Of a stretch of DNA of 6,465 nucleotides, positions 1 to 6,465 are shown piece by piece. A program made the translations under genes and the position numbers. The first letter of the stretch is position 1. Each line of letters starts with the position of its first letter. The notes below the pieces were generated by a model that saw nothing but the letters and a program-made list of their open reading frames with translations, searched no databases and was not told the origin of the DNA. Origin of the DNA: Actinomycetes bacterium (GTDB lineage: Bacteria > Actinomycetota > Acidimicrobiia > Acidimicrobiales > SZUA-35); contig JAAETV010000303.1 of assembly GCA_024227975.1 (NCBI GenBank), positions 1-6,465 of the forward strand, read 5' to 3'.

Positions 1-733
1 CCGAGTCCAAGAGTTGTTGGAGGCCCGGCGGAATCAGCGTCGAGAGAGGAGGCGGATCCCCGTCGAGGATGCGCACGAGGTAGGCGGGTTGGGAATCACC
101 ATCGGCGACATGGAAGGGGGGATGGCCGGCGATCAGGGTGTGGAGGGTCGACGCCACCGAGTACAGATCCGATCGCTCGTCTCGAACGTCACGCCCGTCG
201 GCGAAGGTCTCTGGTGGGCAATGAGCCAGGGTGTACCCGATCTGGGTTGCCGTCGACTGGCGGATAGCGGCGATACCGAAATCGGTGAGTTTCGGGCCCT
301 CGGCCGCCAGGAGGATGTTTCCGGGCTTGACGTCTCGATGCAGGATCCCCTGCTCATGGGCATGACCCAGGGCCGAGACAACCGGGATCAGATACTCGAC
401 CGCCTCGCGCCACGGCACTCGGCCCCGAGCTTCCAAGAGATCGTCGAGCGAGCCATTGGGAACGAACTCCATCACGAGAAACGGAGAGCCAGCCGGCGTG
501 TAGCCAGCCTGGAACGGAGTGATGACATTAGGGTGAGATGAGAGGCGGCCCATGATGGCACGCTCCCGATCGAAGCGACGGCGACCATCGGCATCGATGT
601 TGCGTAGCACCTTCACTGCTACCTGGCGGTGGAACCCCTCATCCCAGGCCACATAGACCGTGCTGAACCCGCCCTCCCCTATCGGCTGGAACTGGGACAG
701 TTCCTCGACGCCCAGATCGATGTGTCGCTCCAC
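1..733 (-). CDS. Hanks-type Ser/Thr protein kinase, N-terminal part (runs off left edge)
   Basis: This gene encodes a eukaryotic-like Ser/Thr kinase catalytic domain that would phosphorylate proteins in the cytoplasm; its substrate is unknown. I translated 244 residues from the GTG at 733-731. The catalytic landmarks are in order: glycine loop IGEGGFSTVY (residues 18-27), VAVK with ATP-anchoring K41, helix-C E57, hinge VMEFV (87-91), catalytic loop HRDVKPGN (132-139, D134 and N139), DFG (151-153), PPE in place of APE (173-175), and DLYS with D189. All residues needed for catalysis are present, so it should be active. The stretch before PPE (GYTLAHC) differs from the usual GTxxYxAPE. GTG is chosen as start because AGGAGG lies 9 nt upstream and the glycine loop begins about 18 residues in, as usual for the family. 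The C-terminal part, including any membrane segment or sensor domain, is outside the window. It is divergent from the DUF885 gene. Confidence 0.95.
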   Translation of the reverse strand, partial: MERHIDLGVEELSQFQPIGEGGFSTVYVAWDEGFHRQVAVKVLRNIDADGRRRFDRERAIMGRLSSHPNVITPFQAGYTPAGSPFLVMEFVPNGSLDDLLEARGRVPWREAVEYLIPVVSALGHAHEQGILHRDVKPGNILLAAEGPKLTDFGIAAIRQSTATQIGYTLAHCPPETFADGRDVRDERSDLYSVASTLHTLIAGHPPFHVADGDSQPAYLVRILDGDPPPLSTLIPPGLQQLLDS

Positions 734-820: not shown

Positions 821-2482
821 ATGACTGAGCTGTTCGATCTGAGCGATCGGGCGGTCAACGAGTTCGTTGCCGCCGATCCGCTCCTAGGTACCTACTCCGG
901 GGTGGCCGGCCATGATCATCGCTGGCCCGACATGAGCCCTGAAGGTCACGCAGAGTCGGTGACTCTCCATCGTGCGATGCGGGACGAGGCGCTGGCCACC
1001 ACCGCCGAAACCTCACAGGATCGGCTGGCCCAGCGGGTGTTGGTTGACTATTGCGACGATGCTCTTGCCGCTCACGATGCCGCCCTTTACCTCACCGATC
1101 TCAACAACATCGATTCACCCCACCAAACGGTGCGGCAGGTCTTCGACGTTCATGCCGCCGATTCGGCCGAGGATTGGGAGTCGATCCTCACCCGGCTCGA
1201 GACCATCAACGAGCCTCTCGATGGGTATCGCCTGACCCTCGAGTCCGGGCTCAAGGTGGGACACATAGCGAGCCGACGCCAGGTCGAAGCCGTGGTCGAA
1301 CAAGGGACGATGGCGGCTGGCCCGGATTCATCCTTTGGCTCATTGCGGCGGCGCTTGGCCGAAGCATCGGTCGACAGCGCCCGGTACAAGGTGCGCCTGG
1401 ATGCCGCCATCGACGGAGCACGCTCTGCCTACGCGGACTTGAACCGCTGGTTGACCGAACAATATGCCCCCCACGCGGGGGAAGCGGACGGTGTCGGCGA
1501 GGAGCGGTACAGAGCATCCAGCCGAATGTTCTTGGGGACTGAGCTCGATCTTCACGCCACCTACCGGTGGGCCTGGGATGAGGTCGAACGGCTGTGGGCT
1601 GAATTGGAGAGGGTCTGCGCCAAGATCGACTCGGGGTGCAGTGTTCTAGAGGTGTACGAGCTCTTGTCGACCGATCCAGCCCGCGTGGCCGGCTCGGCTG
1701 ACGAGTTCATTGCTCTGATGCAGGAACGCCAGGAGACAGCGCTACGAAATCTCGACGGCACCCACTTTGATGTCCCAGACGAGATCCGAGCCATTGATGT
1801 TCTGGTTGAGCCGGCCGGCGGAGCCCTGGCGGCCCACTACCTTCCGCCGTCGGAGGACTTCAGCCGAGCCGGAAGCGTCTGGTATCCGATCGAGGGAATG
1901 ACCTCGATCCCGATCTTCAAGGAGATCACAACCGCGTACCACGAAGGCTTCCCCGGTCATCACCTCCAGGTGGGAGTGCAAGCGACCCAACAGGACCAGC
2001 TATCTCGATTCCACCGCATGCTCGTCTGGTATCCCGGTTCGGGCGAAGGCTGGGCCTTGTACGCCGAGCACCTGATGGGTGAGCTGGGATATCTCGAGTT
2101 GCCTGACTATCAGGTCGGGCTGCTGTCGTCGCAGATGTTGCGGGCCTTGCGCGTCGTAATCGACATCGGGGTCCATCTCGATCTTGCGATTCCCGACGAT
2201 GTCTCATTCCATCCCGGCGAGCCGTGGACCTATGACGTCGCCTATGACCTGTTGGCGAAACAGGCCGGCGAAGGGCCAGCTACAGCCCAATCCGAGGTCG
2301 TGCGGTACTTCGGGTGGCCCGGTCAGGCCAGCTCCTACAAGGTCGGCGAGCAGGCCATCCTCGATCTACGGGCTGAGCAGCAGAAGCGACCGGACTTCGA
2401 CCTCAAGACCTTCCACGCCAACGTTCTCGCCGTCGGTTCCATCGGCCTCGACTTGCTCCGCCATCAGATTGCCTTGGCCTGA
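821..2482 (+). CDS. DUF885-family putative zinc metallopeptidase
   Basis: This is a 553-residue protein of the DUF885 family, whose members are predicted zinc-dependent peptidases with poorly defined substrates. The N-terminus (ADPLLGTYSGVAGHDHRWPD, from residue 19) is the usual family opening. The diagnostic metal-binding motif HEGFPGHH is at 374-381, preceded by EITTAY and followed by LQVGVQ. The second conserved block, GEGWALYAEH, is at 408-417. H374, E375 and a histidine of H380/H381 are presumed to act in metal binding and catalysis, by analogy with gluzincins. The length is normal for the family. No signal peptide or membrane segment is visible, so the protein is probably cytoplasmic, unlike the lipoprotein members of the family. 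The ATG at 821 is chosen because the family N-terminus starts directly after it. It stands alone, divergent from the kinase and convergent with the IclR gene 16 bp away. A role in peptide turnover is plausible; the substrate cannot be told. Confidence 0.93.
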   Translation: MTELFDLSDRAVNEFVAADPLLGTYSGVAGHDHRWPDMSPEGHAESVTLHRAMRDEALATTAETSQDRLAQRVLVDYCDDALAAHDAALYLTDLNNIDSPHQTVRQVFDVHAADSAEDWESILTRLETINEPLDGYRLTLESGLKVGHIASRRQVEAVVEQGTMAAGPDSSFGSLRRRLAEASVDSARYKVRLDAAIDGARSAYADLNRWLTEQYAPHAGEADGVGEERYRASSRMFLGTELDLHATYRWAWDEVERLWAELERVCAKIDSGCSVLEVYELLSTDPARVAGSADEFIALMQERQETALRNLDGTHFDVPDEIRAIDVLVEPAGGALAAHYLPPSEDFSRAGSVWYPIEGMTSIPIFKEITTAYHEGFPGHHLQVGVQATQQDQLSRFHRMLVWYPGSGEGWALYAEHLMGELGYLELPDYQVGLLSSQMLRALRVVIDIGVHLDLAIPDDVSFHPGEPWTYDVAYDLLAKQAGEGPATAQSEVVRYFGWPGQASSYKVGEQAILDLRAEQQKRPDFDLKTFHANVLAVGSIGLDLLRHQIALA

Positions 2483-2498: not shown

Positions 2499-3269
2499 CT
2501 ACCGATTCGACGGTGCGAGGTCGCCCGTCCATCCAAGCTGGCGAGACATCCGGGCCGCGGCGTGGGTGAGGGCAGCCGCCACCGGGTCATCGTGACCAAC
2601 GGGCGGGAAGCGGTAGGAGGGTCCGTGGCTGTGCAGAGCACCAACTAGGGTGCCGGTGTCATCGAACAAGGGCGCCGCCACCGAATTCACACCAGGGTGG
2701 AATTCGCCCTTCGTCCAGGCGTACCCAGCCTGCCGGATCTCAGCCAGGCGGACCTTGATGGCGTCGGGGTCAGTAACGGTCCGGTTGGTGTACCTCTTCA
2801 GGTCGCCGTCGAGGTAAGCATCGACCTCAGCCTGTGGGGCGCTGGCCAGAAACACCAAGCCCGGGGACACGACGTGAAGGGGAAGCCGGTCACCGGTCCA
2901 GTCCCGAATCTGGACCTCGTCCTGGCTATCGACTTGAGTGAGATAGAGCACCTCGGAGCCCGACTGGGCCGACAACCCAACGACCTCGCCCAGTCGGGCT
3001 GAGAGTTGGCTGAGATCGGACCGGTCGAGAGCAGCAATGTCCCCAGGAAGACGGGCCTTGGAGGCCAGAGCCAGAGTGGCCGACCCCAGTCGGTAGACAC
3101 CAGACGTATCTCGTTCGACGACCCGGACCTTCTCCATCGTCTTCAGTAACCGTGCCACCGTGCTGGTCGGCAACTCGACCCGGCGGGCAAGTTCGCTGAT
3201 CCCGGCCGGCCCACCGGCAACCGCCTCCAGCAGCTCGAAAGAGCGTTCAACGCTCTGCACGAAGGTCAT
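2499..3269 (-). CDS. IclR-family transcriptional regulator
   Basis: This is a 256-residue DNA-binding regulator of normal IclR length. Residues about 3-60 form the winged helix-turn-helix: SVERSFELLEAVA, then GISELARRVELPTSTVARLL as HTH, then the wing ending GVYRLG. Residues about 75-245 form the effector-binding domain, with the family signature GEFHPGVNSVAAPLFDDTG at 188-206 and a GPSYRF block at 216-221. The ATG at 3269-3267 is chosen because IclR proteins typically begin a few residues before the VQSVERSFELL stretch. No strong Shine-Dalgarno precedes it; it may be poorly or leaderlessly translated, or coupled to a short upstream frame that ends on ATGA. The effector is unknown. It is divergently placed next to the betaine-domain channel/BCCT operon across a repeat-bearing spacer, so it is the obvious candidate local regulator (inference). 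Its 3' end faces the DUF885 gene with only 16 bp between stops, and no clear terminator hairpin is seen there. Confidence 0.94.
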   Translation of the reverse strand: MTFVQSVERSFELLEAVAGGPAGISELARRVELPTSTVARLLKTMEKVRVVERDTSGVYRLGSATLALASKARLPGDIAALDRSDLSQLSARLGEVVGLSAQSGSEVLYLTQVDSQDEVQIRDWTGDRLPLHVVSPGLVFLASAPQAEVDAYLDGDLKRYTNRTVTDPDAIKVRLAEIRQAGYAWTKGEFHPGVNSVAAPLFDDTGTLVGALHSHGPSYRFPPVGHDDPVAAALTHAAARMSRQLGWTGDLAPSNR

Positions 3270-3291
3270 TGGACATCCATGGGGTCGCTCA

Positions 3292-3339
3292 CTAGGGTCA
3301 CCACCATACGGCGACTCACCACATCGTGGCGAATCACCA
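3292..3339. promoter_or_regulatory. Candidate operator: three TCACCA repeats spaced 18 bp
   Basis: TCACCA occurs at 3298-3303, 3316-3321 and 3334-3339, exactly 18 bp apart. The last two sit in near-identical 12-mers (GGCGACTCACCA at 3310-3321, GGCGAATCACCA at 3328-3339). Between them is an interrupted near-palindrome, TCACCACATCGTGGCGA (3316-3332), pairing at 6 of 7 positions around a 3-nt centre. The symmetry extends with mismatches to 3310-3338. The position, between a divergent IclR regulator and the operon it probably controls, fits a repressor or activator binding site. The DNA arrangement is directly seen; the identity of the binding protein is inferred. Confidence 0.45.
3303..3332 (-). 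promoter_or_regulatory. Possible promoter of the IclR gene
   Basis: Reading the minus strand, TCGCCA (3332-3327) and TATGGT (3308-3303) each match 4 of 6 bases of the -35 and -10 consensus and are separated by 18 bp. Transcription would start near 3297, giving an untranslated leader of about 28 nt. The elements overlap the TCACCA repeats, so a protein bound there would be expected to block this promoter; autoregulation is common in the IclR family. In a GC-rich genome such weak matches arise by chance, so confidence is low. A rightward promoter is even less clear (TTGGAC at 3269-3274 with TAGGGT at 3293-3298). Confidence 0.25.
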
Positions 3340-3348
3340 TGTCAGCAG

Positions 3349-3364
3349 CCGCCGATCTCGGCGG
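3349..3364. repeat. Perfect 16-nt palindrome CCGCCGATCTCGGCGG
   Basis: Two 7-bp arms (CCGCCGA / TCGGCGG) flank a TC centre, 28 bp upstream of the channel gene start. It could be a second protein-binding site or, in RNA, a short GC hairpin in the 5' leader just before the purine-rich ribosome site. A 2-nt loop is tight for RNA, so in RNA the stem would open by a pair. It has no trailing T-run and is not a typical intrinsic terminator. Confidence 0.4.
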
Positions 3365-3392
3365 TAGGGCCCGGGGGGGAGCTGGATAGAAG

Positions 3393-5588
3393 ATGCGATC
3401 GAGCATCCCGAAGACTGCCCTCGCAATCCGGGTTGGGCCACGCCCCAGAACCACAGCCGTGGCGATGGCCGGGCCGATCGCAGTCCTGCTGGTTGTACTG
3501 ACCGGGCTTTCTCGCCCGGCCGAGGCGGTCGACCCCCAGGAGACCCCGGGCGGTGGAGAGACCGTTCGCCTGGCTCGCCCGACCTGGGATACCGGCTGGT
3601 TCCAGGCCGAAGTCGTCTCCCAACTGCTGGAAGAGCTCGGCTACCGGGTCGACGGGCCGACGACCATGGAGAACGAGTCTTTCTACCGGGCCGTAGACCG
3701 GGGCGAGGTCGACCTCTGGGTCAACGGCTGGTTCCCTCTCCACGATGGCCTCCTCGACCAGGCTCCGGGAGCGACCGCGTTGGGGTTCGAGGTCCGGGGT
3801 GGTGCCCTCCAGGGCTACCTGGCCGATCGGGAAACCGTCGAGGCCCTCGGCATCGAGACCCTGGCCGACCTGGCCGATCCCCGCATCGCGTCGGCCTTCG
3901 ATAGCTCTGGGGATGGCAAGGCAGATCTCATCGGCTGCAACCCCGACTGGTCATGCGGGCCGATCGTCGACCACCACCTCGAGGCGTACGGGCTGTCCGA
4001 CACCGTGACCCAGGTCCAAGGCGACTATGGGCCCCTGATGCGGGCCACGGTCGAAAGGCACCAGGCCGGCGAATCGATCCTGTTCTACACCTTCACCCCG
4101 AACTGGACAGTGGGCCAGCTGGTTCTGGGGCACGACGTGGTCTGGGTCCCGGCGCCTTTCCCCAGCCTGCCAGCTGGCATCACTGACCAGGAACCATTGA
4201 CGGTTGTGGCTGGGATCGACGGATGCCTCGCCGATCCCTGTTCGATGGGTTTCGCGCCCAACGACATCCGAGCAGTTGCATCAACGGACTTCCTGACCGC
4301 CAACCCAGCTGTCAAGGCGTTGCTGAACCGTCTCGAAATCCCCCTCGACGACATCTCTGATCAGAACGCCACGATGATGCGGGGCGAGGACGCGGCCAGC
4401 GACATCGCGACCCACGCCCGCCAGTGGATCGACGACAACCGCCAGCTGATCAACAACTGGCTGGATGAAGCGGTGGTCGCCCACACCACGGCCGGGCTAG
4501 TCCTGGCTCCCGGACCGACGCCATCGGCCGACGGCTCGACCAGCCCAGACGGGGACACCATCGACCGGGTCGGGCCGGTGCGGGTGGTGACTCGCTTGGC
4601 CCCACCGTTCGTCACCTACGACGAAGGACGCTACGGGGGCTTCAGCATCGAATTGCTGCGGTTGGTGGCAGATGACGTCGGTGCCGAGGTCGATCTCTAC
4701 GCCGTCAACAGCACAGCCAAGCTGATCGACGATGTGGCCCGCGACCAGGCTGACATTGGCATCGGCGCGGTGGCCATCACATCCCGCAGGGAGCAGTCAG
4801 TCGACTTCACCCAACCCTATATCGACTCCGGACTCCAGATCCTGGTCGCCGACCGCGATGAAGGAGCATTCGGAGGCCGGCTGGGGGCCGTTGCCCGGGC
4901 CATCTTCTCGCCCGGTCTGCTGATCCTGATACTGGTGCTGATGGTGGCACTGGTGGTAGCCGCCCACGCCATCTGGTTGACCGAGCGCAAGACCAATCCT
5001 GACTTCCCTGAGTCGTACCGATCCGGAATCTGGGAGTCGCTGTGGTGGGCGTCGGTCACAGCCACAACGGTTGGCTATGGAGACAAGACTCCCAAGGGGA
5101 CATTGGGACGAGTCTTCGGCCTATTGTGGATGTTCAGTGGGCTGTTCGTTCTGGCCTACTTCACGGCCGGGATCACGACCTCGTTCGCCATCGATGAGCT
5201 GTCGCGGGCCATCGATGGGCCCGCCGACCTGCGAGGACATGCGGTCGGGGCCACCGCCGACTCGGCCGCCATCGAGTTCCTTCAACTCCAGGGCATCGGC
5301 GCTACCGAGTACCCGACCGCCGACGAAGCCTACGACGCCCTCCTGACCGGCGACTTGGATGCCGTGGTTCACGACGCTGCCATCCTCCAGCACTTCGTGG
5401 CCACCGACGGCCGGGGTGGGGCCGACGTCTCAGGCCTGGTGTTCGCCGAGCGAGGCTTCGGACTCGCCGTACCAACCGACAGCGACCTGACCGAGACCCT
5501 CAACCGGGCTCTCCTGCGGGTCGTGGAGTCCGGTGAATACAAAGCCTTGCACGACAGATGGTTCGGGGCCGCCCCGGCCGGAAGCTGA
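3393..5588 (+). CDS. ProX-type betaine-binding domain fused to GluR0-type K+ channel
   Basis: This 731-residue hybrid is predicted to be a ligand-gated potassium channel in the cytoplasmic membrane with two extracellular binding modules. Residues 1-45 are a signal peptide (basic n-region, core GPIAVLLVVLTGL, likely cut after AEA at 45). Residues about 57-362 form a complete OpuAC/ProX domain: NGWFPLHD (111-118), DSSGDGKADLIGCNPDWSCG (170-189), FYTFTPNW (231-238) and VVWVPAPF (249-256). W113, W186 and F234 align with the E. coli ProX aromatic cage W65, W140 and W188. C182 and C188 match its disulfide. Residues 363-393 are a Pro/Ser/Thr/Gly-rich linker. Residues about 395-490 are receptor lobe 1 (AITSRREQSVDFTQPY, R466). 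TM1 is 503-528, the pore is 545-566 with filter TTVGYGD (558-564), TM2 is 572-598, and lobe 2 is about 600-727 (VVHDAAIL, D661). The ATG is fixed by an in-frame TAG two codons upstream; GGAG lies 11 nt before it. The BCCT gene follows after 59 bp without a terminator. The domain calls are firm; the gating ligand is inferred. Confidence 0.95.
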   Translation: MRSSIPKTALAIRVGPRPRTTAVAMAGPIAVLLVVLTGLSRPAEAVDPQETPGGGETVRLARPTWDTGWFQAEVVSQLLEELGYRVDGPTTMENESFYRAVDRGEVDLWVNGWFPLHDGLLDQAPGATALGFEVRGGALQGYLADRETVEALGIETLADLADPRIASAFDSSGDGKADLIGCNPDWSCGPIVDHHLEAYGLSDTVTQVQGDYGPLMRATVERHQAGESILFYTFTPNWTVGQLVLGHDVVWVPAPFPSLPAGITDQEPLTVVAGIDGCLADPCSMGFAPNDIRAVASTDFLTANPAVKALLNRLEIPLDDISDQNATMMRGEDAASDIATHARQWIDDNRQLINNWLDEAVVAHTTAGLVLAPGPTPSADGSTSPDGDTIDRVGPVRVVTRLAPPFVTYDEGRYGGFSIELLRLVADDVGAEVDLYAVNSTAKLIDDVARDQADIGIGAVAITSRREQSVDFTQPYIDSGLQILVADRDEGAFGGRLGAVARAIFSPGLLILILVLMVALVVAAHAIWLTERKTNPDFPESYRSGIWESLWWASVTATTVGYGDKTPKGTLGRVFGLLWMFSGLFVLAYFTAGITTSFAIDELSRAIDGPADLRGHAVGATADSAAIEFLQLQGIGATEYPTADEAYDALLTGDLDAVVHDAAILQHFVATDGRGGADVSGLVFAERGFGLAVPTDSDLTETLNRALLRVVESGEYKALHDRWFGAAPAGS

Positions 5589-5636
5589 CCAGCCCGAGAA
5601 CGCGCAACAGCCAGCAGAACCCAGAAGACAACCATC

Positions 5637-5643
5637 AAGGGGG
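5637..5643 (+). promoter_or_regulatory. Shine-Dalgarno site for the BCCT gene
   Basis: AAGGGGG ends 4 nt before the GTG at 5648, supporting this non-ATG start. The rest of the 59-bp gap after the channel gene stop (5586-5588) is purine/C-rich, with no hairpin plus T-run. The two genes are therefore probably on one transcript. Confidence 0.6.
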
Positions 5644-5647
5644 AACA

Positions 5648-6465
5648 GTGAGTGACCGGACAGAGTTACGGACGGCCCGACGGGCCCAACGGCATCGGGA
5701 AAGGGAGGAACGCGAACGGGCCGTCGCCGAGCGAGAGGCGTTCGAAGGCCTCCAGGTCGATCCCGAGACCGAGTACTACGAGGAGATTGCCGATCGGAAG
5801 CCCGGCGATGGCAACATCGTCAAGTGGGGGTTCGATCTGCACCCCCAAGTGGCGTTCAGCTCGGCCGGCTTCCTGATCGTCTTCCTGGCCTTGACCCTGA
5901 TCTTCAACGATCAGGCCGAGACGTTCTTCCAGGAAGCTCTGACATTCATCGGCGACAACTTCGGCTGGTTCTACATCCTGGCCGCCAACATCTTCCTGGT
6001 CGCCATCATCTTCTTCGGCTTCAGCCGGTTCGGCCGGATCCGCCTCGGCGGCCAAGACGCCAAGCCGGAATTCACCAACTTCGCCTGGTACTCCATGCTG
6101 ATCAGCGCCGGCATGGGCATCGGCCTGATGTTCTGGAGCGTGGCCGAGCCGATCTACCACTACCAGGGACCGGCCCCGTTCTTCGGTGGCGAGGCGAACA
6201 CCCCCCAGGCGGCTGATGCCGCCATGGTGACCACCTTCTACCACTGGGGGCTCCACCCTTGGGGTATCTACGCCTTGGTCAGCCTGGCACTGGCCTTCTT
6301 CACCTTCAACCGGGGTCTGCCCCTGACCATGCGCTCGGTGTTCTACCCCATCCTGGGCGAACGAATCTACGGCTTCTGGGGCAATCTCATCGACACCATC
6401 GCCGTCATCGCCACCCTGTTCGGGCTGGCGTCATCGCTTGGCTTCGGAGTCAAACAGGTATCGGC
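5648..6465 (+). CDS. BCCT-family betaine/choline/carnitine transporter, N-terminal part (runs off right edge)
   Basis: This gene encodes a secondary transporter of the BCCT family (BetP/OpuD/BetT relatives), which import quaternary-ammonium compatible solutes across the cytoplasmic membrane. I translated 272 residues from the GTG at 5648. Residues 1-50 are a highly charged cytoplasmic tail rich in Arg and Glu. Membrane helices follow at about 67-88, 106-126, 145-168, 193-219 and 247 onward. Family blocks are GGQDAKPEF (134-142), SAGMGIGLMFWSVAEP (153-168), HWGLHPWGIYA (199-209), FNRGLPLTMRS (220-230) and TLFGLASSLGFG (256-267). The glycine stretch GMGIG (155-159) and W200, W205 and Y208 match the betaine-binding residues of BetP (G149-G153, W189, W194, Y197). 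This suggests a Na+-coupled betaine-type carrier rather than a carnitine antiporter. The C-terminal half, including the rest of the substrate site and any regulatory tail, is outside the window. It follows the betaine-domain channel gene in the same direction, which supports a joint osmotic role. Confidence 0.95.
   Translation, partial: MSDRTELRTARRAQRHREREERERAVAEREAFEGLQVDPETEYYEEIADRKPGDGNIVKWGFDLHPQVAFSSAGFLIVFLALTLIFNDQAETFFQEALTFIGDNFGWFYILAANIFLVAIIFFGFSRFGRIRLGGQDAKPEFTNFAWYSMLISAGMGIGLMFWSVAEPIYHYQGPAPFFGGEANTPQAADAAMVTTFYHWGLHPWGIYALVSLALAFFTFNRGLPLTMRSVFYPILGERIYGFWGNLIDTIAVIATLFGLASSLGFGVKQVS

Follow-up and report, generated by a model that had tools for sequence, protein, structure and literature searches.

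We report that a single gene in a 6,465-nucleotide stretch of DNA from an Actinomycetes bacterium (contig JAAETV010000303.1 of assembly GCA_024227975.1; hereafter the window) joins a domain of the betaine-binding ProX family to a GluR0-type channel module with a potassium filter. The open reading frame (ORF) at 3393..5588 on the forward strand encodes 731 amino acids, and we confirmed that a ProX/OpuAC domain comes first, followed by a flexible linker and the whole of a GluR0-type module, K+ selectivity filter included. The ProX-GluR0 fusion is a real and widespread new variant of GluR0-type channels. New here as well is the linkage of its loci to genes for BCCT-family transporters, which occurs in four gene orders and with separate ProX-type genes. 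We propose that the ProX domain senses betaine outside the cell and that the channel gates or tunes K+ flow together with the adjoining BCCT transporter, a reading that we consider about as likely as not.

Results

A ProX domain precedes a complete GluR0-type module

The front domain, residues 50-363 (3540..4481; all features of the gene lie on its own strand), matches the ProX/OpuAC profiles NF008334 with 329 bits (cut-off 215) and PF04069 with 156 bits (cut-off 21), and a Pfam search of the protein found no LIVBP-type family there. Behind it, the S1 and S2 halves of a family-3 binding domain flank a first transmembrane helix (TM1), a pore and a second helix (TM2). Domain matches place lobe S1 at residues 395-492 (4575..4868) and lobe S2 at residues 609-727 (5217..5573), and hydropathy places TM1 at residues 507-531 (4911..4985) and TM2 at residues 570-605 (5100..5207). 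The pore region matches Ion_trans_2, and the K+ filter TTVGYGD occupies residues 558-564 (5064..5084). The linker, residues 364-394 (4482..4574), is marked by low scores in the predicted local distance difference test and by a length that varies among relatives: the aligned stretch 357-394 takes up 23-41 residues in the 149 sequences described below. An alternative start, the ATG at 3465, would give 707 amino acids and would begin directly with a likely signal peptide (residues 25-45, 3465..3527), a hydrophobic stretch by hydropathy followed by AEA, with the cleavage site placed by eye. Judged by its sequence, the fusion has the testable defining features of a GluR0-type channel (Group 1 of Ger et al. 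2010), and its front part has those of a ProX protein.

The fusion recurs in several phyla

A protein search returned 441 matches at E<=1e-3, and the best 120 listed, one of which is the window's own protein, all carry OpuAC, SBP_bac_3, Lig_chan and ion-channel domains. At least 148 further full-length proteins in the database have the same fusion. We also scanned a genome collection of 84,980 species and kept 79 loci, the best of 96 confirmed stretches; the channel module is present in 56 of these, which together with the window make 57 loci. Their database labels, mostly of metagenome-assembled genomes (MAGs), name Acidimicrobiia, Nitriliruptorales and Jiangellaceae (Actinomycetota), Cyanobacteria, Chloroflexi, deltaproteobacteria, Bacteroidetes and Kiritimatiellae. 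Of 296 genomes drawn evenly from the class of locus L001, that of L001 among them, 19 have a full-length fusion and 25 gave some match at E<=1e-60. Thus the domain order, whose absence from related genomes the original prediction would have taken as a sign of an assembly artefact, recurs widely.

At two loci (L053:5929-8084 and L048:5881-8114) the fusion is split across two reading frames, by a frameshift or a sequencing error. Several of the database proteins are named "glycine betaine/L-proline ABC transporter substrate-binding protein ProX" (for example P0004 and P0069), so the channel half is easily missed.

Binding and filter residues are largely conserved

Conservation was counted in an alignment of 149 sequences, 148 database proteins of at least 640 amino acids plus the window protein; 9 of 158 listed proteins fell below that length and were dropped. 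W113 (3729..3731), W186 (3948..3950) and F234 (4092..4094) of the window align with W65, W140 and W188 of E. coli ProX, the residues of the betaine box, and H69, C136/C142 and G141 of that protein are equivalent to H117, C182/C188 and S187. We take W140 to be a box residue, and H69 and G141 are presumably contact residues. The standing of W65 and W188 as box residues comes from the available portion of PMC8601584, which cites Schiefner 2004. Across the alignment W113, W186, C182 and C188 are invariant, position 234 is always aromatic (W in 98 sequences, F in 44, Y in 7), and H117 is kept in 135 of 149. Among the loci, 52 fused domains keep both tryptophans as fully as 22 ProX proteins of the ATP-binding cassette (ABC) type and 30 free ProX proteins encoded near the fusion (free cassette ProX); one ABC-type protein lacks W113. 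As far as these residues tell, the fused domains have an intact betaine box that is somewhat freer on its carboxylate side.

In the channel half, the filter TTVGYGD is identical in all 149 sequences. R466 (4788..4790) and D661 (5373..5375), which align with the Arg and Asp of the Nostoc GluR0 ligand-binding domain (LBD; 2pyy) and are the expected ligands of an alpha-carboxylate and an alpha-amino group, are kept in 145 and 147 sequences, respectively. S1S2 seems to have retained the capacity to bind an alpha-amino acid.

These results bear out the original prediction on several points. The order of domains that it had claimed was verified by domain matches, and relatives carry the same set; a K+ filter, as expected of the potassium channel it named, is found throughout the alignment; and its betaine-binding domain is upheld, as a prediction, by profile scores above cut-off and by a box that is aromatic at all three positions in all 149 sequences. 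Its view that the front domain is not of the class found at the amino terminus of animal receptors agrees with the Pfam result.

BCCT transporter genes lie near most channel-module loci

In the window, a BCCT-family transporter gene identified by profile matches (5648..6465, forward strand; likely start GTG 5648, cut by the window end) begins 59 bp 3' of the fusion gene on the same strand. We found no terminator-like site between the two genes, no promoter-like site in 3250-5700, and no RNA family in the window at gathering threshold. By tblastn, a BCCT gene lies within about 1.5 kb at 42 of the 57 channel-module loci; this count replaces one of 37 based on longest-ORF neighbours, which missed genes in GC-rich DNA. 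At the loci without a channel module there is a BCCT gene in only 1 of 23, L056, where the fusion is cut by the contig end. With L056 set aside, 42/57 against 0/22 gives a Fisher p of about 5e-10 for loci that are related and not independent. More telling than this value are the four gene orders (25 divergent, 8 same strand upstream, 5 same strand downstream, 4 convergent) and the occurrence of the linkage in four lineages by database label, Actinomycetota, Chloroflexota, Kiritimatiellota and deltaproteobacterial MAGs.

The linkage was also present in 5/5 further genomes outside the kept loci, all of the same class as most kept loci and drawn from 12 fetched regions, of which 7 were apparently already covered. 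As a control we examined 32 loci of stand-alone GluR0 genes, two of which proved to be fusions; the remaining 30 showed no BCCT gene. Since 28 of these are cyanobacterial with flanks of about 1.5 kb, and BCCT is also absent from eight cyanobacterial fusion loci, this control is confounded and carries no weight.

What do the neighbouring transporters carry? Five full-length ones (L003, L028, L040, L046 and L052) fit best to a betaine-uptake model, at 542-570 bits; the cut-off of that model is 650, so they are not assigned to it, and they do exceed the general BCCT cut-off. A GxGIG stretch is present in 42/42 neighbouring BCCTs and FFVTSSDSGS in 40/42, and Na+ coupling is predicted. The substrate is best described as a methylammonium solute, which is probably betaine.

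Binding proteins are common at the loci and ABC subunits are rare

A separate free ProX-type gene lies near the BCCT gene in 31/57 loci. A simple pattern detects a lipobox-like N-terminus in 20 of these 31 proteins, and several others have an N-terminal hydrophobic anchor by eye. Other lineages have non-ProX proteins of the OpuAC family in the same place, as if variously recruited to one cassette. One, in the gene between at L040:7020-8000, is closest to an OsmF model and another, at L049:5009-5926, to a choline-binding model, both below the respective cut-off; a third OpuAC protein sits at the equivalent place in L053 (4875-5792), and L052 has what looks like a similar gene. In L049 and L052 the intervening gene, taken as the longest ORF, overlaps the fusion frame by 10 bases.

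ABC subunits show the opposite distribution: ProW is found near 1/57 channel-module loci versus 18/23 loci without the channel module, and we therefore rejected an ABC partner adjoining the fusion gene. Neither ProV nor ProW has a match in the window. ProV-like matches near three loci (L002, L010 and L048) may be other ABC ATPases, and L010:3106-6365 is the sole locus of the 57 with both ProW- and ProV-like matches beside the fusion. Because BCCT and binding-protein genes are common and ProW is rare, the cassette often brings together a secondary transporter, binding proteins and a channel, and no ABC subunits.

Free ProX-type proteins stand beside BCCT without ProV or ProW at L028:2908-5722 and also at L008, L011, L012, L017 and others. 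These pairs are possibly binding-protein-assisted secondary betaine transporters; we know of no description of a BCCT transporter assisted by a binding protein, although no thorough search for one was made.

Origin of the fusion

In a tree of GluR modules, built by a quick method with long branches flagged, all 37 sampled fusions (36 of the 148 database fusions and the window) fall within one starred clade of 51 rows. The same clade holds 14 rows labelled as modules alone, of which at least five (P0126, P0128, P0129, P0130 and P0134) start within ProX sequence, which makes them look like fragments; P0136 and P0154 look truly stand-alone. The ProX tree omits 5 of the 57 loci and 1 of the 31 free cassette ProX proteins, and its row L056_trunc is the free ProX of L056. 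Its 52 fusion rows need three changes, one of them forced by starred branches, with L003, L042 and L045 lying outside. In this quick tree the free cassette ProX proteins group in a single clade (98*), separate from the fused and the ABC-type ProX. The two trees are compatible with a single origin of the fusion but do not prove it.

Other genes of the window

Divergent from the fusion gene lies a gene for an IclR-type regulator (2499..3269, reverse strand), which may control the fusion and BCCT genes. A counterpart, 61% identical, occupies the same place in the near relative L046. The window also encodes a DUF885 protein (821-2482, forward strand) and a protein kinase domain (2-733, reverse strand) cut by the window edge. 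Neither had a tblastn match beyond the window at E<=1e-15, the kinase with a query frame that was unchecked.

Discussion

How might such a channel work? The fusion of a ProX-family domain to a channel with a K+ filter, and the usual presence of a BCCT neighbour, lead us to predict that betaine outside the cell is sensed. The protein would share the topology of GluR0 and have an inverted pore and two extracellular binding domains. Betaine or a closely related methylammonium solute would shut the ProX clamshell, and this closure would act via the short flexible linker on the S1S2 clamshell. The tetramer would then open, and K+ would exit while the BCCT symporter imports betaine. As a result, the emergency osmolyte K+ would be swapped for betaine, and the positive charge of the co-imported Na+ would be balanced. 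We infer K+ release upon betaine entry, as we infer the ligand, the gating and the direction of flow.

The proposal is consistent with what is known of GluR0 and of osmotic adaptation. Synechocystis GluR0 conducts K+ in E. coli, has both lobes on the outside and makes cells shrink more slowly upon KCl upshock, according to excerpts of PMC13099474. Bacteria facing an osmotic upshift take up K+ with glutamate first, and betaine and other solutes later take the place of the K+ (PMC10906006, in excerpt). A K+ channel that binds betaine outside and is encoded with a betaine-type symporter would be well placed for K+ exit during betaine entry. The original prediction had guessed at a compatible-solute-sensing K+ channel, and the BCCT genes near 42 of 57 loci, often together with separate OpuAC-family binding proteins, lend this guess support.

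Several observations weigh against the betaine-sensing proposal. BCCT is absent from the flanks of eight cyanobacterial loci (L014, L016, L022, L026, L037, L047, L048 and L057), some of which have short flanks, and from those of L005, L041, L042 and L054, L041 having only 132 bases on one side; the three other loci without BCCT (L006, L009 and L024) have very short flanks. H117 is kept in 45/52 fused domains versus 22/22 ABC-type and 30/30 free cassette ProX proteins, and the position of G141, serine in the window, is more variable in fused domains than in free ones; this looseness lowers our confidence in the proposal. The window has F at position 234, and one of the 52 fused locus sequences has R there (51/52 aromatic). 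A ProW-like permease is encoded elsewhere in 28 of the 33 fusion-bearing genomes searched, which represent 33 of the 57 loci, and an ABC partner in trans is thus possible. One neighbouring BCCT, that of L046, was compared with solved structures, and its closest match is the Na+/trimethylamine symporter TmaT (538 bits), ahead of a choline carrier (378 bits) and BetP (330 bits). TmaT did not bind betaine, according to the available part of PMC11708041, so the solute of the cassette could be another methylammonium compound. Sequence does not tell in which direction K+ flows. Finally, a chimera of GluA1 and a viral channel responds to agonist without its amino-terminal domain (NTD; PMC6385376, in excerpt), and the ProX domain might therefore only modulate the channel.

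This last point bears on the alternative that survives best, although we consider it unlikely: gating proceeds as in GluR0, by glutamate or another amino acid at S1S2, and the ProX domain has only a modulating, assembling or anchoring role, with betaine as a minor or structural ligand. Against such a subordinate role, the box tryptophans are kept as well as in free ProX proteins, and the BCCT and OpuAC-family neighbours point to betaine. Somewhat less probable again is a channel of the proposed architecture and mechanism whose ligand is another methylated solute, such as trimethylamine N-oxide, dimethylsulfoniopropionate, choline, proline betaine or trimethylamine. The resemblance to TmaT is the point in its favour, and the fit to the betaine-uptake model is the point on the other side.

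Might the ProX domain instead be a tethered scavenger that passes betaine to the BCCT carrier or to an ABC transporter in trans, with the channel as a charge-balancing K+ path that betaine does not gate? The separate ProX-type genes near BCCT in over half of the loci, in the near absence of ProW, look as if BCCT used binding proteins, and the ProW-like permeases elsewhere in most searched genomes would offer a partner. Yet ProW accompanies the loci without a channel module rather than those with one, a scavenger has no need of fusion to a channel, and to our knowledge BCCT carriers have no requirement for a binding protein. We regard this explanation as improbable. An assembly chimera or a chance run-on of two genes was rejected, and we give it almost no credence: both halves are present in all 120 listed best matches, and full-length fusions occur in several phyla and in 19 of 296 genomes of the L001 class.

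To return to the betaine-sensing channel, the seeming ability of S1S2 to bind an amino acid raises the possibility that opening depends on both ligands or that one of them tunes the channel. A bolder version, which we offer tentatively and with clearly less confidence than the basic proposal, is a two-ligand channel in which betaine at the ProX domain and an amino acid at S1S2 would be read jointly by one K+ pore. The pore, the BCCT symporter and the orphan ProX would then form a dedicated module that exchanges K+ for betaine under osmotic stress.

Among known systems, the closest are Synechocystis GluR0 (slr1257; LBD 1ii5), the prototype among glutamate receptors of prokaryotes, and the Nostoc GluR0 LBD. 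The fusion shares with them the order S1-TM1-pore-TM2-S2, the K+ filter and, at the amino-acid site, the Arg and the Asp; an S1 Arg and an S2 Asp are also part of the definition of Group 1 of Ger et al. 2010 in the available text of PMC2950845. GluR0 lacks an NTD, according to excerpts of PMC6385376, whereas the fusion has a complete ProX domain in front, and its gene is linked to BCCT in 42 of 57 loci. E. coli ProX (1r9l), the binding protein of the ABC transporter ProU, differs in being free rather than fused to a channel, and with ProW so rare nearby the fusion does not belong to a local ProU transporter.

Animal ionotropic glutamate receptors (iGluRs) of the NMDA, AMPA and delta types likewise place a binding domain ahead of S1S2, and the S1S2 and pore of the fusion match GluN2 and GluD by sequence and AMPA, NMDA and delta receptors by fold. 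In animal iGluRs the NTD is of the LIVBP class, an M4 segment is present, and the pore sequences are others (partly in excerpts of PMC6385376). Nematode DEG-3/DES-2 and others are, in the source portions available, also ion channels opened by betaine. These are of the nicotinic-receptor type and have no kinship to iGluRs. In 7ahh, which we take to be an OpuA-type importer with a fused binding domain, an OpuAC-family domain shares a chain with a membrane protein, but this is an ABC permease, not a channel.

Among the listed matches and passages from open-licence PubMed Central (PMC) papers, we found no description of the ProX-GluR0 architecture, which agrees with the original claim that no characterised channel has it. 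Among the same matches betaine and GluR0 occur together in one paper, in which betaine was only tested on a placozoan receptor, and the available main text of PMC2950845 makes no mention of betaine, OpuAC or ProX.

The fusion thus defines a wide bacterial family of GluR0-type proteins that have an NTD, drawn from a class of binding proteins other than that of animals. The linkage of its genes supplies a concrete hypothesis for the ligand. With this family two questions can be put to the test: how an iGluR pore came under the control of a second clamshell, and how bacteria exchange K+ for compatible solutes.
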